A stretch of DNA of 64,000 nt from Bacteroidia bacterium. Its GTDB lineage: Bacteria > Bacteroidota > Bacteroidia > UBA4408. The DNA is taken from positions 1 to 64,000 of the forward strand of contig JADLFI010000015.1 of the NCBI GenBank assembly GCA_020845635.1, written 5' to 3'. This document shows, piece after piece, positions 4,054-53,534 of the stretch (position 1 is its first letter; each line of letters starts with the position of its first letter). The position numbers and the translations under genes were made by a program. The notes below the pieces were generated by a model, which worked only from the letters and a program-made list of their open reading frames with translations, was not told the origin of the DNA and ran no database searches.

Positions 4054-5991
4054 CTAATTTTTCCACCGGAACGAATTGATTAAATAATCAATATCGTAAT
4101 TCATATACTTAAGTACCGGAGCAATTGAGTCGGCATTAGGAGCAGCGTTAAAATATAAGGCTCCTCGTACAAAATGGTGAACACTATCGGTTAAATAAAA
4201 CTGGGTCTGAGATGCGCTGTTCCCACTCAGTAAATATATTAAACCATACATATTGTTTTCTTTACGTTTTATTAAAAACTCTTCAATACCATCGGCCATG
4301 GCAGTATGTTTGTAGGCCAAAGTTCGCGAATCGTTTAGTTGTTTTTCTAAATCTTGCTTGTTTGTTAGGGCATTGTAGCTAAAATGAATGGTAGCCTTAT
4401 ATTTTGGATAATAAATATTAAACCAGCACAGATGTTCGGGGTTTTGGCTGTATGGTTTAATAATAGCATGGGTAGAGTATTCAAACTCAAAAGGACAATC
4501 AGGCTTAAATAATTGGTATGCAGGTGCAGGCAAATCTATACGGTAATAGCCTTTAGGTTTTGGCGTAAATTCATTATCGCACGAAGAAAAAAGCAATAAC
4601 AAAGCAAATGGAAGCACCAAAATAATAGATGGGATAATATGACCTCTTGGTGTTTTTTCTTCATCAGGCTTATCAATAATAGTCATTTTTACTCTTTTTA
4701 TTCTTCTCTTATCAACCGACTCAATACTAAAAATATAATTTGCAAAGGTAATTTTCTCGTTTTTAAGCGGTATTTTTCCGCTAAGCTCCAGAATAAAGCC
4801 CGCTAATGTGTCCGACTCGCCTCTTTTTTCCTCAAATTCCTGACCATTAATATTAAGCACTTTATATAAATCGTTCAGCAAAATCTTGGCTTCAAAAACA
4901 TAATTAAGGTCATCTAACTTTGAATAAACCAGTTCTTCTTCATCAAACTCGTCATTTATTTCGCCAACTACTTCTTCAATAATATCTTCAAGAGTAACAA
5001 TACCGTTTGTTCCGCCATACTCATCAACAACAATGGCCAAATGTATTTTTTTGTTTTGAAACTCTTTCATAAGGTCATCAATTTTTTTGCTTTCGGGCAC
5101 AAAAAATGGCGCCCTGATAAGTGACTGCCATGAGAAGGAAGCATCTTTATCAAGATAAGCAATTAAATCTTTAATAAACAATATACCTTCAATATTATCA
5201 ATTGATTCTTTATAAATGGGAACTCTTGAAAAACCATTCTTTATAACTAATTCAATAATTTCATTAAAGGGGGTATTATACTCAAAGGCCACTAAATCAA
5301 GTCGAGGGGTCATAATTTGGCTAACTTCTATGTTTCCAAATTCAACAATACCTTGCAATATTTTTTTCTCCTCATCAGGAGGCTGTTCTCCGGTAGTTAG
5401 TTCAAGCGCTTGCGATAGCTGATCTACAGATAAATCGGGTGCTTTTTGTTTAATTTTAGTATCAAAGCCTTTTGAAATTTGTACCAAAACATACACAAAA
5501 GGATATAATATTTTTTGAACAACCAAAAAAATATGTCCGTACTTGAGAGCTAAATGGCGTGGGTTTTTTGAGGCATATATTTTAGGAATTACCTCGCCCA
5601 CCAATAAAATTATAAAGGTAACTACTACCACTTCTACTATAAATACCAATAGACCGTTCCCTTCAAAGTCAAACAAGCTATCAAAGAGCATTTCAGATAA
5701 AATAACCACTCCAATATTGACCAAATTATGGCTCATTACAATAGTGGCAATAAGGCTTGCCGAATTATTGGTTAGACTTAATAATTTTTGAGCTTTATAG
5801 CTGGAGTCTTGTTTAATAATTTCAAAGTCGGAAGGGCTTAAAGAAAAGAATGATACTTCTGCTAAGGCTATCAGGGATGAACAAATAAGCAAAGCTAATA
5901 TGATAGAAAGCTCTATAGCAGATTGAGAGCCAAAGCCATTAAAAATAAAACCTAAAACTGCGCCCGGGGCGCTACTGACCGAACCGTCCAA
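4054..5991 (-). CDS. GldE-GldD fusion: CNNM/CorC-type membrane protein joined to gliding lipoprotein
   Basis: Residues 1-435 match GldE. A DUF21/CNNM membrane domain has about four hydrophobic segments (27-49, 80-103, 113-135, 154-172), followed by a CBS pair (about 225-345) and a CorC/HlyC domain (about 355-432). Residues 450-645 match the gliding lipoprotein GldD. Its signal-like helix IIPSIILVLPFALLLLFSSC ends in a lipobox Cys at 471, followed by a GldD-type body (GYYRIDLPAP, SFRWKN end). In Flavobacterium these are separate adjacent genes, both needed for gliding and T9SS. Here no stop separates them. An internal ATG at 4684-4686 could start GldD separately. The gene begins 38 bp after ssb. 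Confidence 0.88.
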   Translation of the reverse strand: MDGSVSSAPGAVLGFIFNGFGSQSAIELSIILALLICSSLIALAEVSFFSLSPSDFEIIKQDSSYKAQKLLSLTNNSASLIATIVMSHNLVNIGVVILSEMLFDSLFDFEGNGLLVFIVEVVVVTFIILLVGEVIPKIYASKNPRHLALKYGHIFLVVQKILYPFVYVLVQISKGFDTKIKQKAPDLSVDQLSQALELTTGEQPPDEEKKILQGIVEFGNIEVSQIMTPRLDLVAFEYNTPFNEIIELVIKNGFSRVPIYKESIDNIEGILFIKDLIAYLDKDASFSWQSLIRAPFFVPESKKIDDLMKEFQNKKIHLAIVVDEYGGTNGIVTLEDIIEEVVGEINDEFDEEELVYSKLDDLNYVFEAKILLNDLYKVLNINGQEFEEKRGESDTLAGFILELSGKIPLKNEKITFANYIFSIESVDKRRIKRVKMTIIDKPDEEKTPRGHIIPSIILVLPFALLLLFSSCDNEFTPKPKGYYRIDLPAPAYQLFKPDCPFEFEYSTHAIIKPYSQNPEHLCWFNIYYPKYKATIHFSYNALTNKQDLEKQLNDSRTLAYKHTAMADGIEEFLIKRKENNMYGLIYLLSGNSASQTQFYLTDSVHHFVRGALYFNAAPNADSIAPVLKYMNYDIDYLINSFRWKN

Positions 5992-6029: not shown

Positions 6030-6443
6030 TTATATATTGTCTGCATGAAGACCTTCTGTCTCGCCAGCATTTTTATCTGTTGAAGAATCAGTATTAGAAG
6101 CAAGTTTATTACGGGTTAAAAGGTTTATACTATCACCTTTTATTTCGGTAATATATCTTTTAACTTTTTCTTTATCTTCCGTTACTCTTGTTCTAAGCTT
6201 GCCTTCAATAAACACGGCATCTCCTTTCTTTAAATATTTTTCGGCAAACTCGGCTAACCAGCCCCAAACTACAATGTTATGCCATTCGGTTTGTTCTTGC
6301 CTGTTGCCGTTTTTATCTTTATATATTTCAGTAGTAGCCAATGGAAAAGAAGCCACTACAGAGCCGCTGTCAATATGTCTAACTTCGGGGTCTTTACCTA
6401 AATTCCCCATCAGTAATACTTTATTTATTCCGGGTATCGCCAT
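6030..6443 (-). CDS. ssb: Single-stranded DNA-binding protein
   Basis: The 137-residue protein has the SSB OB fold at residues 5-110. Typical motifs are [16 protein letters not shown] near the start, [10 protein letters not shown] and EGKLRTR. SSB coats single-stranded DNA during replication and repair. The C-terminal tail after residue 112 is short and ends GLHADNI, so the usual acidic tip (D-D-D-I/L-P-F), which recruits partner proteins, is not present. It lies 8 bp after the PorE-like gene and 38 bp before gldE. The ssb-gldE-gldD order is known from other Bacteroidota. It could be a secondary SSB with the main copy elsewhere. Confidence 0.93.
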
Positions 6444-9362: not shown

Positions 9363-12300
9363 TTATTTACGTCTTAACTCAACCCAACGGTTTTCATCAA
9401 TTTTGCCACACTCAGGAGAATCGGCAGTGAGCACCACAAAGTAGGTCCCTACAGGTAGTTCAACACCATTTTTCCCTGTTCCGTCCCAATCGTTTTTATA
9501 TGATCCGCCACTATTATATACTTCATTACCCCATCTGTTAAAGATAACAATATGGTTAGGTTCATAAGCCTCAATGCCCGGAATTACTAAATAGTCGTTT
9601 ACCCCATTACCATCAGGCGAGTAACCTCTTGGCATCTTGTCTAACACCGGAGGAGGCTCAACCAAGACGATAGAGTCCTGAATTGTACAGCCAAAGGCAT
9701 CGGTAACAACAACTTTGTATAAGTTACCTTCTTGTGCTGTTAGTCCGGTAATTACCTGAGTGTTTTGTCCGGTTGACCATTGGTAGGAATAAGGTTCCTG
9801 ACCATTTGATACAACCGCAGTAATTTGTCCGTCAGTTCCTTTAGGGCATTTTACGTTATAGTTTCCGTTCTCGTAGAATAACGGTTCTAATGCAATTTGC
9901 ATATTACTTAAACTTGGTCCGATATAGATAGTATCGGAAGTAGCCTTACAACCAAATTGATTTTGTGAAGTAACCCAGTATATACTTACTGAATTAATAG
10001 TAATAGTTTGTCCCGTTTGACCTGTACTCCAAACAAAGTTTGACCCCCCATCAGCCGAAAGTTCAACGGCACCTGAGCCATCGCAAGCCAACTGACCATT
10101 CACAAAAATAGAAGGAGCTGTGGCCGCAGGGGCAGGAAGTATTTGAACAGCCTGAGCAGTAGCAGTACAACCATTGGTGCCGGTAACTGTTACGGTGTAA
10201 ACACCGGCTGTATCAATAACAATTGATTGAGTAGTATCTAAATTAACGGTTTGGTTATTGATGGTTTGAAACCATTGGTAAGAAACATTTTGATTAACTG
10301 ACAATACTAGGGTATCACCTTCACACAATTGAGGAGAGTTACTTAAGGTAATTACCGCTGTTGGGTTAAACAATGTGGTAACTACTATAGTATCGCTTCC
10401 TAAAGAACAACCACTAGCATTAGTAACATTTAATATATATGTTCCTGCACTGTACACGGTTAAATTCTGTTGATTAGAACCATTGTTCCATAAGTTACCT
10501 GTAGGATTGTTAGAGCTTAACACCACAAAATCGCCAAGGCAGAAAGTAGTAGGGCCACTGGCAGTAATTTGAGCAGGATTTCCTGAGCCTGAAAGCACTT
10601 CAACGGTAATGGTATTTGAAACTGAAGTACAACCATTGGCGTCTGTAGTAACTACTGAATAGTCGCCCGATTGATTAACAACTATTGACTGCCCAACTTC
10701 GTTGGTTGGACTCCATAAGTATGATGTGCTTGCATTGGCAAATAAAGTAACTGAATCTCCCTGGCAGAAAGTAGTAGAACCTGAAGCAGTGATAGTTGCC
10801 TGAGCAGGAGCCGAATAAATGGTTATTTCAGCAGGTTGAGAAGTAAATGATCCGCAGGTGTTGGTAATAGTTACAGATACTGTAGTTGTGCCAACCGTTG
10901 AAATATCAATTGTTTGGGTAGTTTCGCCATTTGACCATAAATAGGTTGAACCCGGATTTCCGGCATCAAGTGTAACCGTACCACCACATTGTGTATAAGG
11001 GCCGCCTAAATTAACAGTAGGAGGCGTTTGAACTAATACATCAATAGGTAATGAAGTGGCAGAGCAGCCAATAGCATCAGTAACGGTAACGGTATATGAA
11101 CCAGTTGAATCAACAATAATTGAAGTACCTGTTTCTGAGGTGTTCCACAAGTATGATAAATTGCTGGTACAAGTATTACAAATCATTTGGATATTATCTA
11201 TACCAAAATCATTTCCACCCGTAGCACTATTCATACTATGCAGGGAAACAACTGCTGTAGGGTTAGCTCCGGCAGTCCATGTTTGAGTAAATAATACCCA
11301 GTTGTTTATTCCGGCAGGACAATTCATTACAGAACCCACATCAACTCCATCAACTCTTAATTGAATAACTCCCGGATTGTTATTGGCCACCATGGAGGCT
11401 AAAAATAATGAAATGTCATACGTTTGGTTAGGCACTACAGTAACTGTTTGTTGCCATACATACTGACCTGTATTTGACGAACCATTAACACATAAGAAGT
11501 TTCCGGCTCCGCCCTGCCCCACTCCGGTAAATCCGGGATGGTTAAGTGAAGCATTAGCAGTAACAAAGGTAGTTCCTTCAGGTTGAAGGTTTGATTGGTA
11601 GTTATATTCTGTAGCAAAATCACTAAATCCTGCATCAAAATTACCGTTTACAATAATATTTTGATTTTGAGATGCTCCGACTACTTCAAGTTGCACCGAA
11701 TTACCTGTACAGAATGTGGTAGGTCCGTTAGCCTGAATAACAGGGGTTGCAGGTAGCGGATTAATAGTTACATTAATTGTATTACTTACTTCGGTGTTAC
11801 ATTGATTACTTACAGTAACAAATACTACCCCGTCACTTGTAAGGGTTGCTATTTGTCCGTTAGGAATTTGATTATTTCCGCTCAAATCAGTCCATACATA
11901 AGTAGCACCGTTTTGCTGACCGGCATCAATGCTCACCGAACCACCACACTGAACAATATCAGTACCAATATTTACAGGAGTAATATTATTTAAAACAGTT
12001 ACGGTAAACCCTTGTGAAACCGCTGTACAACCATTCCCATTATCAACTGTAACGGTATATATCCCCGATTGATTTACTGAAATACTGGCAGTAGTTTGGT
12101 TACCCGGACTCCATGTAATATTTTGGGTTTCGCTTGAGGTAAGTATCAATACATCGTTCTGGCAAATAGTACTTGAACCATTAGCTGTTATAACAGGAGT
12201 TTGTGGGGCAGGTGTAATAGTTACTACAGCAGTGTCGCTACTTACAGTACCACAAGCATTACTTGCAGTTACATAATACGAACCGCTCTGTAACACGAGA

Positions 12301-15300
12301 ATAGTTTGAGTAGTTTCACCATTGCTCCATTGGAAGTTGGCACCCGTATTCCCTGCATCAAGCGTAACATTACCTCCACATTGTGTGTAAGGACCACCTA
12401 AAGCAATAGAGGTACTTAATGGGTTATCAACTACAACATTGACATCTGCTGATACAGCAGAGCAACCGCTAGTATCTGAGGTGCTTACAGAATAAACACC
12501 TGAAGTGTAAACAGTTATTGAGGCGGTAGTTTGACCATTTGACCATAAGTTATTGGCTGCATCTGAAGTTAAAACTACACTGTCGCCAACACAGAAGTTA
12601 AGCGGGCCGCTAGCGGTAATTATAGGCGTAGCAGGTAAAGGATTAATGGTTACATTGGCTGTTGAACTGGTAATGCTTCCACAAGAGTTTGTAACCTCTA
12701 CAAAGTAATTTCCACTGATTGAAACAGAAATGCTTTGAGTAAATTCACCATTGCTCCATAAGTAAGATGTTCCTGCAGAATGGGTTCCTGCATCTAAAGT
12801 AACGGTACCCCCACACTGAGTGTATGGGCCACCCAAGTCAATAGGTAATAACGGAGTATCAACATTTACTTGAATACTGTTAGAGGTAGCAGAACAACCA
12901 TTAGCATCAGTATAAACTACACTATAAGTACCACTTTGAGTAACTGTAATAGAAGGTGTAGTTTCGTTATTAGACCATTCAATATTGTTATTTATACTTG
13001 AAGTAAGTATTACAGATGCACCTTGACAGAAGGTTGTTGGGCCATTAGCTGTTATAACAGGGGCTACAGGAATAGTAAAAAGATTAACTTCCGCGATAGT
13101 ACTTGTAACAGTACCACAGGTATTAGTAATTTGTACCGAATAATTTCCTGAAGTGCTTACGGTAATAGTTTGGGTTGTTTCGCCATTGCTCCATAAATAA
13201 GTAGCATTATTTCCGGCATTAGCGGCATCTAATGTAATAGAACCACCACATTGTGTATAAGGACCTCCTAAATCAGTTGCATTAAGAGGGGTTGAAACAT
13301 TAACAGTAATTGAATTTGATGTTGAACTACATCCGTTGGTGGCTGTTGTAGTTACAAAATAAGTTCCGGACTGGTTAACAATAATACTTTGGGTTGTTTC
13401 GCCATTACTCCATAAGTAGTTTTGCTGTGCATTGCTGGTTAAAGTAACACTTCCGGTGGAACATATTGTAGTTGGGCCACCAGCAGTAATAACAGGCGAC
13501 TGCGGTATGGTTAATATATTAACAACTGCAGTATCTGATTGAACGGTACCACAAGTGTTAGCTACGCTCACATAATAAGAACCGCTTTGCTGCACGGTAA
13601 GTTGTTGGCTAGTTGCTCCATTGTTCCATAAGAAAACATTACCGACACCGGTATTACCGGCATTTAATGTTACTGAACCACCGCATTGAGAATATGGGCC
13701 ACCCAAGCTTGGAGCTACAGGAGCTTGTTGAACATTAACGGTAATAGGAGCTGATGAGCTAGTGCAATTATTACCATCATTAAAAGTAGCAAAGTAAATA
13801 CCACTTTGGGTAACAGTAATTGTTTGAGTAGTTTCACCTGTGTTCCAAGTAATTCCGTTAGCGATATTAACACTTAACGTGAGTGAACCACCCGCACAAA
13901 AAGTTGTTGAACCTAAAGGAGTAACCACCGGTGCAGGAGGGTTTGGATTAATAGTAACTTGAGCCGTAGTACTTTGTACACTACCACAGCTATTAGATAA
14001 TATTACATAATAATTTCCTGATTGATTAACCGTAATACTTGGCGAGGTAGCGCCATTGCTCCATAAATATGTTGTGCTGGCAGGATAGTTTCCTGGGTTT
14101 AACAAAAGAGTTCCGGCACATTGTACAAAAGGACCGCCTAAATTAGGGGCAGTAAGCAGTGTGTCGGATGATACGGTAATAGGAGCCGAAACAGCTGTAC
14201 AACCATTAGCATCGGTAAAAGTTACGGAGTATGTTCCGCTGTTGGAAACAACTATTGATGGAGTGGTAGCACCGTTTGACCAAGTGTTTCCGGTTGCTTG
14301 AGAAGAGTTAAGCACTACTGAATTTCCTTGACAGAACACTACAGGGCCGCCCGGAGTAATAACCGGAGCAGTAGGAATAGGGTTTATAGTAATATTAACG
14401 GTGTTGCTGGTTTCGCTTCCACAAGCATTTGAAACAACCACCGAATAAGCACCTGATGAGGCTACGGTAATCATTTGGGTGGTTTCACCGGTACTCCACA
14501 AATATTGAGCTCCGGGGTGACCTGCATTTAAAGTAACTGTACCGCCACATTGGGTTACATCATTACCAATATTAACTTGTGTTATAGGGTTTTCTATTGT
14601 TACAACTACAGTGTTAGAAACGGCAGTACAACCATTTGCATCGGTTATTAAAGTATAGTAGGAACCCGATGTTGTAACACTAATATCTTGAGAGGTTTCA
14701 CCATTAGGCGACCAAAGGTTTCCTGAAACATAGCTTGAACTTAGAGTTTGTACTGCGCCATTACATATTTGAACCGGGCCTGTAGGAGTAACTACAGGAG
14801 GCGCAGGAGTATTATTTATAGTAATACTAATAGGGTTACTTGTTACGCTACCACATGAATTGGTTACCGTAACTGAAAGAGTAGCTGTAGCAGAAACAGT
14901 AATTGTTTGAGTTGTTTCGCCATTACTCCATGAATAGGTTGCGCCCGGGTTTCCGGCATCTAAAGTTACCGAGCCGCCACATTGAACAATATCATTACCT
15001 AAATTTACTATCGGCATGGTTTCGATAGAAACATTAACAGGGGTAGAAACATTGGTGCAACCATTTAATCCGGTTACAGTTACTGAGTAAGAACCCGATT
15101 GAGTTGCTGTATAGGTTTGAGTTGTTGTTGTGTTATCATTCCATAAATAGGTAACATCAGTCATAGTCCCTGCATCTAAAACCACAGAACCTCCGCATTG
15201 AACAATAGGGCCGGCAGGACTGATAACAGGCTGTGCAGGTGCAGGAGACTCAATTACAGTAACAACATCAGAAACACTTATACAACCTGTTGAGTCAGTA

Positions 15301-18300
15301 TAAGTTACAAAATAAGAACCGGCACTTGATACTACAATAGACTGAGTTGTTTCGCCATTTGGTGACCATACATTGCCGGTAACTGCCGAAGAAACTAAAG
15401 TAACTGATGAGTTCTCACAAATTTGAATTGTTCCTGAAGGACTTACTGACACCTGATTAGGTACAAAATTAGTAACCACAAAAGGTGCAGACACTGAAGT
15501 ACAGCCACTATTATCGGTAATGGTTACTGTATATATTCCGGGACTTGTAACATTTATGGATTGGGTTGTTTCACCATTTGGTGACCACAAATAGGAGGCA
15601 CTGTTGTTGGCTGAAAGTACTGTAGAGCCACCAACACAGAATTGATGATCTCCGGTAATAACGGCATTGCCGGGATTATTAACTAAAACGTTAATAACAT
15701 TTGATTGAGCTGTACAACCGTTAGTATCTGTGGTAGTTACAAAATAGTTACCTGAAGAATATATTGTAATATCTGGAGCAACCTGTCCGTTGTTCCAGAT
15801 GATGCTGTCAACTATATCAGAAGCCAAAACTACCGACTCGCCTAAACAGAAAGTAGTAGGTCCCATAGCTGTAACTACAGGAGCTATAGGGTTGGGCAAC
15901 ACTGTTATTGAGATAGTATCTGATTGTGCAGTACAACCTGCACTATTGGTTACTGTTACGGTATAATTACCAGATGTATTTACCTGAATGGAGTTAGTAG
16001 TTTCTCCACCCGGGCTCCAGGTGTTATTGTTATTGCTGCTACTATATAAAGTAACACTTCCGCCTTGGCAGAATGTGGTTGCTCCAAAAGGGTTAATAGA
16101 TGGCTCGCTTGGATTGTTATTTACCACTACATTGATAGGTGCTGATGCTGCTGTACAATTATTAAAATCAGTTACAACAACATAATAACTTCCTGAGGTA
16201 TTAACAAAAATAGAGTCAACCGATGAAATATTTACAGGCATCCAATAAAAGTCCATTACGCTTGTTGAAGAAATGAACAACTCAACTGAATCGCCCTGAC
16301 AGAATGTTACAGCACCATTAGCAGTAATGACAGGGGCTGTGGGTAGAGGTAATTCAGTAACCACAACAGGTTGAGAAACAGCATTACAACCATTTGCATC
16401 AGTAAAAGTTACGGTATATGTCCCTGCCTGAGAAACGGTTATTGATTGAGTTGTTTCGTTGTTTGGAGACCAAATATTACCACTTGCATAGCTAGAAGTT
16501 AGGGTTACTGAGGAGCCGGGACATATATTAAGACTACCTGAAGCTGTAATAACAGGTGCCGGAGGGCTTGTAGGAACCATTGAAACTTCAAGCGGAGCAG
16601 ATGTACCCTCACAACCGTTAGCATCTGTTACGGTAACAGTAACAGTTTGAGCAGAGTCAACTGTAATTGTTTGGGTTGTTTCTCCTGTGCTCCAAACATT
16701 TCCTGTGGCAAAACTTGAGGTTAAATCAACACTGGAACCTTGACAAATAACGGTTGAACCACTGCTAGTAATTACCGGTATCGGTAAAGCATTTACAATA
16801 ATATCAATATCATTTGATTGGGCTGAACAACCATTATTATCGGTAACGATTACATTATAAACACCGGTACTATTAACGGTAATAGATGTTCCGCTTTGGC
16901 CACCGGGCTGCCAACTATATGATACATATTCGGGCAGAACTGTGGTGTTTAAGGTAACTGAATCGCCCTGGCAGAAAACTATTGGGCCGTCTGCACTAAT
17001 TACAGGGGCCACAGCCACCGGAAACATGGTCACATGAATTGGAACACGTACGGGACTTTCGCAATCAGGAGTGTAATCAACCACCCAAAAAGTAGTATCG
17101 CTGCTTACTGTTACGGTAAGCATATTAGAGCCTTCTAATAAAATATTGCCAGCGGCATCATACCATCTGTAATTTGTGGCTCCTTGAGCTTCTAAAGTAA
17201 TTGTTTCAGGCCCGCAAACGTGCTGATCCTCAACCACCGGACCACTGTATTCAACAGCGCATATATCATAGGCCGAACCATAGTTAGCCCTTACAAAGCC
17301 TCTTTGGTCATTAGCAGGAGCACCGTAGTTGGTTCCGGCATCAATAGCAGGACTACAAGCCAAAAGTAAAACGGTAGGAGTAGGTCCTCCATTTTTCTTC
17401 AACACATTACTAATTACTAAATTGCTTGGTAACCCAATAATATTTCCTGCAGTGTTTCCGGTAAAGTTCATCCCTAAAACATTGTCCACTAAATTATGAC
17501 CGGATACGGAGTACATATTTCCGAATACGGCACTAGCACCGTTAGTAGCGGTGTTTGCAGTAATAATAGTGTTATTAACCTCAATATTTCCAAGGTTAAC
17601 ATAAATAGCCCCGCCTACATCATCGGCAGTATCATAAGCAAAGGTACAATTTCTGATAGTAACAGTTCCGATAGTGGCTTTGTCAAGACCTCCACCAATA
17701 GCGGCACGGTTTCCGAAAACGGTACAGTTGGTCATTAATAATGAGCCAAAATTCATATAAACACCTCCACCTAGTCCGGCTAAATTAGTGTTGTAATCAA
17801 TTGTAGTATTGTTTATGGTTACATTAGCATTATTGGTACATATTCCTCCACCTAATCCGTTATTTACATAGTTTTTTGTAATTTGGCAATTATTAATGGT
17901 TAAGTCGGCATTTTCAACATAAATACCACCACCTGTAAGACTTGACCCTTTTGTTATTACTAAATTGTTAAGCTCTACTTTGATCGCCATAAGACCTACA
18001 GATTTAACCGAAATAACAGAAAAGTCGGGAGCAGTAAGGCTTCTTTCAATCGTTAAACTATTATTTGAAGGCCCATTTATTATAACATGGTTTCGGATTT
18101 CGGAAAGTGTCGAATCTAAAACTATGTTTCCCGACAGACTTGTCATATCAACAATATGAGGTGACAAAGCTGTAGCCGAAGCATCAATATTAAGTGCATT
18201 AATTACGGCTCGTAATGATCCGGGACCACTATCATTAGTGTTTGATACTGTATAGTTGGTTGCACTTGCCGGTAAAGAATAACCTATGAAGGCTATTACT

Positions 18301-18377
18301 GACCATGTTAGTAGTTTTATTGAACTACGACTAAACCATGATGAAAATCTTGTACGTTGTATGTCTCTTAAATTCAT
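9363..18377 (-). CDS. Giant multi-repeat cell-surface adhesin with type B T9SS sorting domain
   Basis: The 3004-residue secreted protein has a long-leader signal peptide (1-39, cleavage after ASA). A right-handed beta-helix of the pectate-lyase/choice-of-anchor type follows (about 45-375; repeated GGGIYV, NNCTV-type rungs). About 30 Ig-like repeats of 70-80 residues (375-2830) each carry two conserved Cys. The pattern is GPTTFCQG, then YLWSNGETTQSITV, then DANGC. In the middle, A-type repeats (TFCQG ... NGC) alternate with B-type repeats (GGPYTQCGG ... NTCG). A different domain is inserted near 2230-2405. A SprB-like repeat (about 2830-2913) precedes a gliding-motility-type C-terminal domain (2914-3004; SPDGNGVNDYL, NRWGNEVY). 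By family it is exported by T9SS and displayed for adhesion or gliding. Confidence 0.93.
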   Translation of the reverse strand: MNLRDIQRTRFSSWFSRSSIKLLTWSVIAFIGYSLPASATNYTVSNTNDSGPGSLRAVINALNIDASATALSPHIVDMTSLSGNIVLDSTLSEIRNHVIINGPSNNSLTIERSLTAPDFSVISVKSVGLMAIKVELNNLVITKGSSLTGGGIYVENADLTINNCQITKNYVNNGLGGGICTNNANVTINNTTIDYNTNLAGLGGGVYMNFGSLLMTNCTVFGNRAAIGGGLDKATIGTVTIRNCTFAYDTADDVGGAIYVNLGNIEVNNTIITANTATNGASAVFGNMYSVSGHNLVDNVLGMNFTGNTAGNIIGLPSNLVISNVLKKNGGPTPTVLLLACSPAIDAGTNYGAPANDQRGFVRANYGSAYDICAVEYSGPVVEDQHVCGPETITLEAQGATNYRWYDAAGNILLEGSNMLTVTVSSDTTFWVVDYTPDCESPVRVPIHVTMFPVAVAPVISADGPIVFCQGDSVTLNTTVLPEYVSYSWQPGGQSGTSITVNSTGVYNVIVTDNNGCSAQSNDIDIIVNALPIPVITSSGSTVICQGSSVDLTSSFATGNVWSTGETTQTITVDSAQTVTVTVTDANGCEGTSAPLEVSMVPTSPPAPVITASGSLNICPGSSVTLTSSYASGNIWSPNNETTQSITVSQAGTYTVTFTDANGCNAVSQPVVVTELPLPTAPVITANGAVTFCQGDSVELFISSTSVMDFYWMPVNISSVDSIFVNTSGSYYVVVTDFNNCTAASAPINVVVNNNPSEPSINPFGATTFCQGGSVTLYSSSNNNNTWSPGGETTNSIQVNTSGNYTVTVTNSAGCTAQSDTISITVLPNPIAPVVTAMGPTTFCLGESVVLASDIVDSIIWNNGQVAPDITIYSSGNYFVTTTDTNGCTAQSNVINVLVNNPGNAVITGDHQFCVGGSTVLSANNSASYLWSPNGETTQSINVTSPGIYTVTITDNSGCTSVSAPFVVTNFVPNQVSVSPSGTIQICENSSVTLVSSAVTGNVWSPNGETTQSIVVSSAGSYFVTYTDSTGCISVSDVVTVIESPAPAQPVISPAGPIVQCGGSVVLDAGTMTDVTYLWNDNTTTTQTYTATQSGSYSVTVTGLNGCTNVSTPVNVSIETMPIVNLGNDIVQCGGSVTLDAGNPGATYSWSNGETTQTITVSATATLSVTVTNSCGSVTSNPISITINNTPAPPVVTPTGPVQICNGAVQTLSSSYVSGNLWSPNGETSQDISVTTSGSYYTLITDANGCTAVSNTVVVTIENPITQVNIGNDVTQCGGTVTLNAGHPGAQYLWSTGETTQMITVASSGAYSVVVSNACGSETSNTVNITINPIPTAPVITPGGPVVFCQGNSVVLNSSQATGNTWSNGATTPSIVVSNSGTYSVTFTDANGCTAVSAPITVSSDTLLTAPNLGGPFVQCAGTLLLNPGNYPASTTYLWSNGATSPSITVNQSGNYYVILSNSCGSVQSTTAQVTINPNPPAPVVTPLGSTTFCAGGSLTLSVNIANGITWNTGETTQTITVTQSGIYFATFNDGNNCTSSSAPITVNVQQAPVAPSLGGPYSQCGGSVTLNAGNTGVGNVFLWNNGATSQQLTVQQSGSYYVSVANTCGTVQSDTAVVNILTIPQSPVITAGGPTTICSTGSVTLTSNAQQNYLWSNGETTQSIIVNQSGTYFVTTTATNGCSSTSNSITVNVSTPLNATDLGGPYTQCGGSITLDAANAGNNATYLWSNGETTQTITVSTSGNYSVQITNTCGTVTSTIAEVNLFTIPVAPVITANGPTTFCQGASVILTSSINNNIEWSNNETTPSITVTQSGTYSVVYTDANGCSATSNSIQVNVDTPLLPIDLGGPYTQCGGTVTLDAGTHSAGTSYLWSNGEFTQSISVSISGNYFVEVTNSCGSITSSTANVTINPLPATPIITASGPLNFCVGDSVVLTSDAANNLWSNGQTTASITVYTSGVYSVSTSDTSGCSAVSADVNVVVDNPLSTSIALGGPYTQCGGNVTLDAGNTGANFQWSNGETTQTILVLQSGSYYVTASNACGTVSSDTAVVTITPAPQTPVITANGSSTICQNDVLILTSSETQNITWSPGNQTTASISVNQSGIYTVTVDNGNGCTAVSQGFTVTVLNNITPVNIGTDIVQCGGSVSIDAGQQNGATYVWTDLSGNNQIPNGQIATLTSDGVVFVTVSNQCNTEVSNTINVTINPLPATPVIQANGPTTFCTGNSVQLEVVGASQNQNIIVNGNFDAGFSDFATEYNYQSNLQPEGTTFVTANASLNHPGFTGVGQGGAGNFLCVNGSSNTGQYVWQQTVTVVPNQTYDISLFLASMVANNNPGVIQLRVDGVDVGSVMNCPAGINNWVLFTQTWTAGANPTAVVSLHSMNSATGGNDFGIDNIQMICNTCTSNLSYLWNTSETGTSIIVDSTGSYTVTVTDAIGCSATSLPIDVLVQTPPTVNLGGPYTQCGGTVTLDAGNPGSTYLWSNGETTQTIDISTVGTTTVSVTITNTCGSFTSQPAEITIYSAPAQATITASGSTTFCQGDSVTLFANASTSYLWSPTNEVGQSIVVNQSGDYSVVTTDANGCTSVSNTITVEVLSGSGNPAQITASGPTTFCLGDFVVLSSNNPTGNLWNNGSNQQNLTVYSAGTYILNVTNASGCSLGSDTIVVTTLFNPTAVITLSNSPQLCEGDTLVLSVNQNVSYQWFQTINNQTVNLDTTQSIVIDTAGVYTVTVTGTNGCTATAQAVQILPAPAATAPSIFVNGQLACDGSGAVELSADGGSNFVWSTGQTGQTITINSVSIYWVTSQNQFGCKATSDTIYIGPSLSNMQIALEPLFYENGNYNVKCPKGTDGQITAVVSNGQEPYSYQWSTGQNTQVITGLTAQEGNLYKVVVTDAFGCTIQDSIVLVEPPPVLDKMPRGYSPDGNGVNDYLVIPGIEAYEPNHIVIFNRWGNEVYNSGGSYKNDWDGTGKNGVELPVGTYFVVLTADSPECGKIDENRWVELRRK

Positions 18378-52500: not shown

Positions 52501-53511
52501 TTAGTTCAACTTATCCCACTGAACTACGCTAGCACTAATTTTGCTGGCGTAATCATTGGCCAATTGTTCGTTCTCAAATGCCGCCCAATTACCACCCATT
52601 GGGCTTCTTAAGTCTTCGTTTTGTACATAAAATGCTAAAGTGGCATCTATAAGTGAATTTTCGGCCAGATAATTATGAACGTAAAATGAGCTAATTTCGG
52701 TACTGCTTTTTTCGTTTGTATAATCAAGCATACATTTTAAATCATCAAACTTGTAAACCCTTCCCTTTTTAGTGATTAATTCAGCTCCAAAATGACCATC
52801 AGAGATGGCCATGGAGCAAAAATCGCACTTGTCAGAATTTAATTTAATGGGCGAAGGGCCACTACTACTGCAGGCACTAAATCCGAGCATACCAACGGCT
52901 ACAAGCATTGTTGCAGCAGTTTTCTTTTTCATATACTTATCTAAAAAACCTGATTCGGTAATTACGGCAACAAACATTAATAAGCCACCTACTACAAACA
53001 ACCATCCTCCAATATCAGGAACAGAGAATGCTCCAAAATTAAGTAATTGTTTAAATCCTATTAGAGGGGGTTGATAAGCCATTCCGGGAACTATAATGGC
53101 AGCATTAGGGTCAAGATTATGGCCATAATTATATTCCCATCTCCAGAAATCAACCATAGCAATTACTCCAAATGCTACAAAGGCCCAAAAAGCTATATAT
53201 AAGAATTTCTTTTTGCCCGAAAGTCCTGCTAATAAAATTATCAGAAAATAGCCTATAATTATGTATTTTAAGATAGAAAATTCAATAAAGTTTTCGGCAT
53301 GTAACGTTTGCATACCGATATAGTGATTCAAACCGTTAATAATATCTACATCACCTGCCAGCTTATCTGCATGAATTTTAAGTGCTAATCCTTCAGGGTA
53401 TTGAGGTGCATCTAATTCAATACGCCATATTGGAACAAATATGGAAGTCAATACGGCTATGGCGGCTACTATATATAGAATCTTTGATTGTTTTGAAATT
53501 GTGGGAGACAT
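52501..53511 (-). CDS. Fusion of a nos-cluster membrane protein to NosL
   Basis: Residues 1-190 form a polytopic membrane domain with about four helices (12-30, 80-97, 103-121, 165-185). It resembles the unnamed membrane protein of clade II nos clusters. At 194 comes a typical lipoprotein signal (MKKKTAATMLVAVGMLGFSAC, lipobox Cys214). The NosL domain follows, with the Cu(I)-binding CDFCSM (229-234), KGRVYKFDDLKCML and SPMGGNWAAF. NosL delivers copper to apo-NosZ. Normally these are two genes. Here there is one frame with no stop, although the Met at 52930-52932 could start NosL internally. An intrinsic terminator (53535-53567) precedes the gene. Confidence 0.88.
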   Translation of the reverse strand: MSPTISKQSKILYIVAAIAVLTSIFVPIWRIELDAPQYPEGLALKIHADKLAGDVDIINGLNHYIGMQTLHAENFIEFSILKYIIIGYFLIILLAGLSGKKKFLYIAFWAFVAFGVIAMVDFWRWEYNYGHNLDPNAAIIVPGMAYQPPLIGFKQLLNFGAFSVPDIGGWLFVVGGLLMFVAVITESGFLDKYMKKKTAATMLVAVGMLGFSACSSSGPSPIKLNSDKCDFCSMAISDGHFGAELITKKGRVYKFDDLKCMLDYTNEKSSTEISSFYVHNYLAENSLIDATLAFYVQNEDLRSPMGGNWAAFENEQLANDYASKISASVVQWDKLN

Positions 53512-53534
53512 TTTTTATAAATTATTGCAAAAAA

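Follow-up and report, generated by a model that had tools for sequence, protein, structure and literature searches.

Introduction

In Bacteroidota of the Flavobacterium johnsoniae type, GldE and GldD are encoded by separate genes, whose founding description is reportedly that of Hunnicutt and McBride in 2001. CNNM/CorC proteins, known from magnesium-cobalt transport, hold their CBS and CorC domains in the cytoplasm, and the described place of a lipoprotein signal is the N-terminus. FbcH, the cytochrome b/c1 preprotein of Bradyrhizobium, is a single chain that comprises a multi-span membrane protein and an exported protein; the signal peptide of the latter lies inside the chain and is cut by signal peptidase at an ordinary signal peptidase site.

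GldD is a lipoprotein that is essential for gliding, and GldJ and GldK depend on it for their stability, according to the passages of PMC9127263 that deal with it. In the part of PMC5682007 covering a gldD mutant of Flavobacterium psychrophilum, GldJ is missing from the table of surface proteins. As stated in the relevant sections of PMC5395568, certain genomes of Flavobacterium lack GldE, and a gldB defect was partly suppressed when GldE was overexpressed. Within the open-licence literature, we found no paper on lipoproteins whose signal peptide or lipobox is internal, and the accessible portions of papers naming GldD, GldE and fusion make no mention of a GldE-GldD fusion. In the locus described here, a lipoprotein signal lies inside a fusion of two known proteins; the processing step that would follow is a prediction.

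GldE and GldD share one reading frame

The window, that is, the whole stretch of 64,000 nucleotides analysed here, contains at 4054-5991 on the reverse strand a single open reading frame of 645 amino acids, which starts with TTG and runs without a stop codon in the ORF listing. Unlike the separate gldE and gldD genes of the Flavobacterium johnsoniae type, the two parts occupy one frame and the lipoprotein signal is internal rather than N-terminal, yet both parts lie far above their NCBIfam cut-offs. Specifically, GldE (TIGR03520) matches residues 32-438 with 528.1 bits against a cut-off of 376.05 and covers positions 2-407 of the 408 in the profile, and GldD (TIGR03512) matches residues 463-644 with 223.5 bits against a cut-off of 120 and covers positions 2-182 of 182. 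Pfam divides the frame into a CNNM membrane domain (PF01595; residues 30-200, 5392-5904), a CBS pair (residues 223-344, 4960-5325), a CorC_HlyC domain expected in the cytoplasm (PF03471; residues 358-438, 4678-4920) and GldD_lipo (residues 473-643), all encoded on the reverse strand. The GldE part thus has the CNNM membrane domain, CBS pair and CorC_HlyC domain of CNNM/CorC proteins, and its relatives of solved structure are 7m1t and 7m1u, which match the CNNM domain, 4hg0, and CorC 3nqr, which matches residues 223-344. Distinct from these proteins, the fused chain adds a C-terminal hydrophobic helix and a lipoprotein domain that is expected in the periplasm.

Between the two proteins, a charged linker of low model confidence (residues 439-449, 4645-4677) leads into what was once the signal peptide and is now a hydrophobic helix inside the chain, without K, R, D or E (residues 450-470, 4582-4644; helix at 456-469 in the model). 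This is followed by an internal lipobox, FSS-C (4579-4590), with Cys471 as the candidate lipid acceptor, and by the mature GldD part (residues 471-645, 4057-4581). The preliminary description had read the frame as GldE and GldD joined without a stop, with a signal-like helix (Cys471) inside it, and the ORF, NCBIfam and Pfam results bear out the join as the 21 charge-free residues ahead of FSSC bear out the helix. In the source genome, which is rated 99.99% complete, no gldE or gldD was found besides this frame; the one further match is a CorC-type paralogue that shares 29% identity and has no GldD part.

Upstream of the frame, and 38 bases from it, lies ssb (6030-6443, reverse strand), which is found upstream of gldE at all 25 fused loci and at 54 of the 62 separate loci that we compared. 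A PorP/SprF-family protein is encoded near gldE-gldD within the window, and GldJ is found above its cut-off in the genome. Also on the reverse strand, at 9363-18377, is a gene for a 3004-residue repeat protein, in which a choice-of-anchor Q domain is accompanied by a T9SS type B sorting domain that scores slightly under the cut-off (34.2 versus 35 bits); the gene adjoins a PorP/SprF-family gene and an OmpA/PorE-like gene.

The fusion is conserved and recurrent

The fusion is real, conserved and recurrent, and it joins two known proteins via an internal lipoprotein signal. Every genome of the genus (four of four) has the frame open across both parts, with 64-68% identity for the three besides the source. 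Among the four remaining genomes of the family, two, from two further genera, carry the fused form, one (G005) has separate genes and one (G007) shows a fragment only. The comparison with close relatives that the preliminary description had called for therefore upholds the fusion in the genus and beyond it. In the class sample of 396 genomes, a stop-free match spanning GldE and GldD is present in at least 25; the fused form occurs in 8 of 11 genomes of family f61 and in 2 of 7 genomes of genus g8 in family f4.

Junctions were tabulated for 25 fused loci and 62 separate ones, all distinct; left out were duplicates (fused L108, L109 and L112; separate L092, L097 and L099), loci without both parts on one strand and loci with a short or weak GldE match. 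One fused member noticed later (L155, in G401) is outside these counts, and rows inside one clade are not independent. Removal of five rows with a short or interrupted GldE left 82 GldE domains, 25 fused and 57 separate, for a maximum-likelihood tree. On this tree, the fused members fall into eight groups and eight changes of state are needed, of which well-supported branches force at least seven, compared with an average of 21.7 for shuffled labels. The changes may be gains or losses, and seven to eight of them mean that fusion recurs. Three further GldE matches (L139, L146 and G108:C12) lie in long open frames of about 690-725 codons with possible N-terminal extensions; L139 and L146 have a separate gldD and are not GldD fusions.

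At separate loci, gldD mostly stands close behind gldE, often with its start overlapping the gldE stop, and in several pairs the gldE stop lies at, or a few codons from, the gldD start in the same frame. With pairs packed so tightly, and some of them in frame, fusion looks like an easy step. In genus g8, where both states occur, the flanks of the fused and separate forms align well; in the separate form the gldE stop and the gldD start overlap as ATGA, an overlap that is missing from the fused form, whose signal region is largely rewritten. Separate genes with the same flanks, which the preliminary description had named as evidence against the fusion, do occur in G005 and in genus g8, with ssb preceding gldE whether fused or separate; they represent a natural alternative to the fused frame and not a correction of it.

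A sequencing or assembly artefact that dropped a stop codon might be suspected, given that many of the compared genomes, the source included, are drafts in many contigs. The same frame, however, is present in four genomes of the genus and in unrelated families, and two separate species of genus g8 (L073 and L109) have identical junctions. An artefact, to which we assign next to no probability, is thus ruled out by the fused frame in independent genomes.

The internal lipoprotein signal keeps its cysteine

The 21-residue stretch without K, R, D or E and the lipobox FSSC that follows it have the helix-plus-lipobox arrangement of a bacterial lipoprotein, placed at residues 450-471 of 645 instead of at the N-terminus, and separate translation is disfavoured. 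F at -3 and S at -2 and -1 depart from the strict form, Leu-Ala/Ser-Gly/Ala with Cys, given in the motif definition of PMC9360617; such departures are common among the compared GldD sequences. All 25 fused rows have the lipobox Cys, versus 59 of 62 separate rows, where the residue scored is the nearest Cys within eight residues of the expected place, a rule that favours the Cys count (offsets of -3 to +3 were observed). Position -1 of the fused rows is always occupied by S, G or A (25/25), and position -3 by L or F in most of them (23/25). Three deep fused clades, of 6, 7 and 6 rows, each have one invariant position among the 29 columns that end at the Cys, namely the Cys itself, in a gap-free layout anchored on it. 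Additionally, across eight fused pairs, similarity is lower in the linker and signal than in the GldE and GldD parts, with 29-35% identity in four of the eight. Sequence thus drifts in this region and the Cys stays. The three separate GldD proteins without the Cys (L010, L013 and L056) come from flavobacterial MAGs and retain a hydrophobic N-terminal helix.

The surroundings of the Cys differ between the two states. The charge-free stretch before it has a median length of 18 residues in fused versus 14 in separate rows. The flank on its N-terminal side has a mean net charge of +0.32 in fused rows (+1 or more in 14/25) versus +1.85 in separate rows (57/59), a comparison of internal segments with real N-termini. 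Within the 25 residues that precede the Cys, or the whole signal where that of a separate protein is shorter, the net charge is positive in 13 of 25 fused versus 53 of 55 separate rows. Judged from sequence, a longer uncharged stretch and a weaker positive flank fit a membrane span behind a cytoplasmic domain that would not need an N-terminus of its own. As a control for chance, a loose pattern found a lipobox-like motif in 16 of 301 internal hydrophobic segments from 415 proteins; these 16 include four GldE-GldD fusions, one separate gldD whose start was called too early (L037) and the NosL frame that is described below.

Internal initiation is unlikely

The preliminary description had offered translation of GldD from an internal ATG at 4684-4686 (reverse strand) as an alternative. 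If GldD were made in this way, the open junction would be incidental, and two observations lend this some appeal: the ATG exists, as Met436, at a possible place in the source frame, and the tight packing of separate pairs implies that coupled initiation at the junction is probably ancestral. Its use as a start is disfavoured, however. Met436 lies within the last CorC strand (431-438 in the model) and is not conserved in the genus, its position being Leu, Ile and Leu in the three congeners, all of which lack the Met. Moreover, 7 of the 25 fused junctions have no usable in-frame ATG, GTG or TTG, and 16 of 25 have no such ATG, a usable start being an in-frame codon that lies 60 to 15 residues before the Cys and leaves a K or R in the signal. 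The seven start-less junctions (L005, L068, L069, L073, L106, L118 and L128) are spread over six of the eight fused groups. Rare starts such as ATT or CTG are outside these counts, and three separate loci whose start is absent or doubtful (L126, L137 and L144) remain in the start-codon and stretch counts. GldD at the seven junctions would hardly be made except within the fusion, barring a rarer start codon. By these sequence comparisons internal initiation is unlikely, and we give it a low probability.

Predicted structures of the fusion and of GldD

An AlphaFold2 model of the whole fusion (89 aligned rows) places confidence in the GldE and GldD domains, with a linker (443-457) of pLDDT below 50 and a pTM of 0.44; with such a pTM and linker, we claim neither a contact between GldE and GldD nor their relative placement. 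Modelled alone, GldD reaches a pLDDT of 91.4 and a PsbP/Mog1-like fold. In Foldseek, the GldD model matches PsbP-type chains with E values from 7.1e-5 to 1.8e-3, and VIA gives Z scores of about 10-11 against Mog1, PsbP and LpqN (Z 10.7 and rmsd 3.4 over 136 residues with 2vu4; Z 11.1 and rmsd 4.1 over 147 residues with 1jhs). By sequence, no solved relative of GldD was found at E values up to 1, and in the open-licence literature we found no paper that treats GldD together with PsbP. The GldD part is thus predicted to have a PsbP/Mog1-like fold over most of the domain; sharing a fold does not show a function.

Proposed maturation of the fused protein

We propose that gldE and gldD are translated as one polypeptide in which the former signal peptide would serve as a membrane helix, that Cys471 would be lipidated by Lgt, and that the chain would probably be cut by LspA to free GldD; this is the reading that we hold to be the most probable one. 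In this scheme, the CNNM-type membrane domain of GldE would insert first, and the CBS and CorC domains would fold in the cytoplasm. Because these domains are cytoplasmic, the chain must cross the membrane again for GldD to be periplasmic, and the retained helix is rightly placed for this purpose. Specifically, the helix would act as an internal start-transfer segment, with its N-terminal side in the cytoplasm and its C-terminal side in the periplasm, and would send the GldD domain to the periplasm. Lgt would then place a lipid on Cys471, and LspA would most likely cut just before this residue, yielding an ordinary lipidated GldD and a GldE that carries an additional membrane helix at its C-terminus. 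The gene would therefore be a small natural polyprotein gene that provides two gliding/T9SS proteins in matched amounts. An LspA-family gene is present in the same genome. A signal helix enters LspA between two of its membrane helices, according to the structural passages of PMC9360617, so a cytoplasmic extension would not obviously be a barrier.

The main alternative is that the chain stays joined, with the helix permanently anchoring periplasmic GldD to GldE and the lipid on Cys471 optional. Retention of the single frame over long divergence, in three deep clades, speaks for such an anchor, as does the longer uncharged stretch, which suits a stable membrane span. Three of 62 separate GldD rows have no Cys at all and seem to have become simple membrane-anchored proteins, which counts against processing in that GldD can manage without the Cys in some lineages. 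However, a plain anchor needs no lipobox, yet the Cys is kept in every fused row and is the one invariant residue of the three clades, and the LspA family is present in the genome. The strict retention of the Cys suggests lipidation and cutting at the buried signal, and we consider a permanently joined chain possible but distinctly the less probable of the two.

Lipidation and release of GldD, the reading that we prefer, has a parallel in FbcH. Like that preprotein, GldE-GldD comprises two complete proteins that share a frame and are separated by an internal signal peptide, so that a membrane protein and an exported protein share one chain with the signal of the second protein inside. The two differ in the cutting site: FbcH has an ordinary signal peptidase site, whereas GldE-GldD has a lipobox and is predicted to take the Lgt and LspA route.

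A second fusion of like design in the window

The lipobox control also led to a second frame in the window, at 52504-53514 on the reverse strand, which encodes a multi-helix membrane protein followed by NosL (PF05573), a copper chaperone lipoprotein, with an internal lipobox. As in GldE-GldD, a membrane protein, an internal lipobox and a lipoprotein domain succeed one another; the proteins are unrelated to GldE and GldD, and distinct from that fusion, a good internal Met is retained in the 52504-53514 frame, from which NosL may be translated separately. A search of 60 relatives gave matches in 22 genomes, and both parts lie in one open frame in 10 of these 22. The lipobox Cys is present in all ten fused frames, and in one of them (L198) the stretch 45 to 12 residues before the Cys is free of in-frame ATG, GTG and TTG codons. 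The like design of this frame means that the layout is not confined to GldE-GldD. In the accessible parts of the open-licence literature on Bacteroidetes NosL lipoproteins, we found no paper on a NosL fusion of such design.

Discussion

Two unrelated examples in one 64 kb window, GldE-GldD with its eight fused groups in the tree and the membrane protein-NosL frame, raise a broader idea, namely that in Bacteroidota membrane-protein genes repeatedly have lipoprotein genes welded to their 3' ends and the resulting polyproteins mature at internal lipoboxes, with Lgt and LspA acting on signals that are not N-terminal. We see the chances for and against this idea as evenly balanced. A recurrent internal lipobox with a strictly retained Cys offers a natural test of whether the lipoprotein enzymes take internal signals, and for genome annotation it means that predictors that read N-termini alone would overlook such lipoproteins. 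The fusion also ties GldE, which is poorly understood in gliding, to GldD, and its recurrence suggests that GldE and GldD work together at a fixed ratio. If such repeated welding is true, GldE and GldD would act side by side at the inner membrane.
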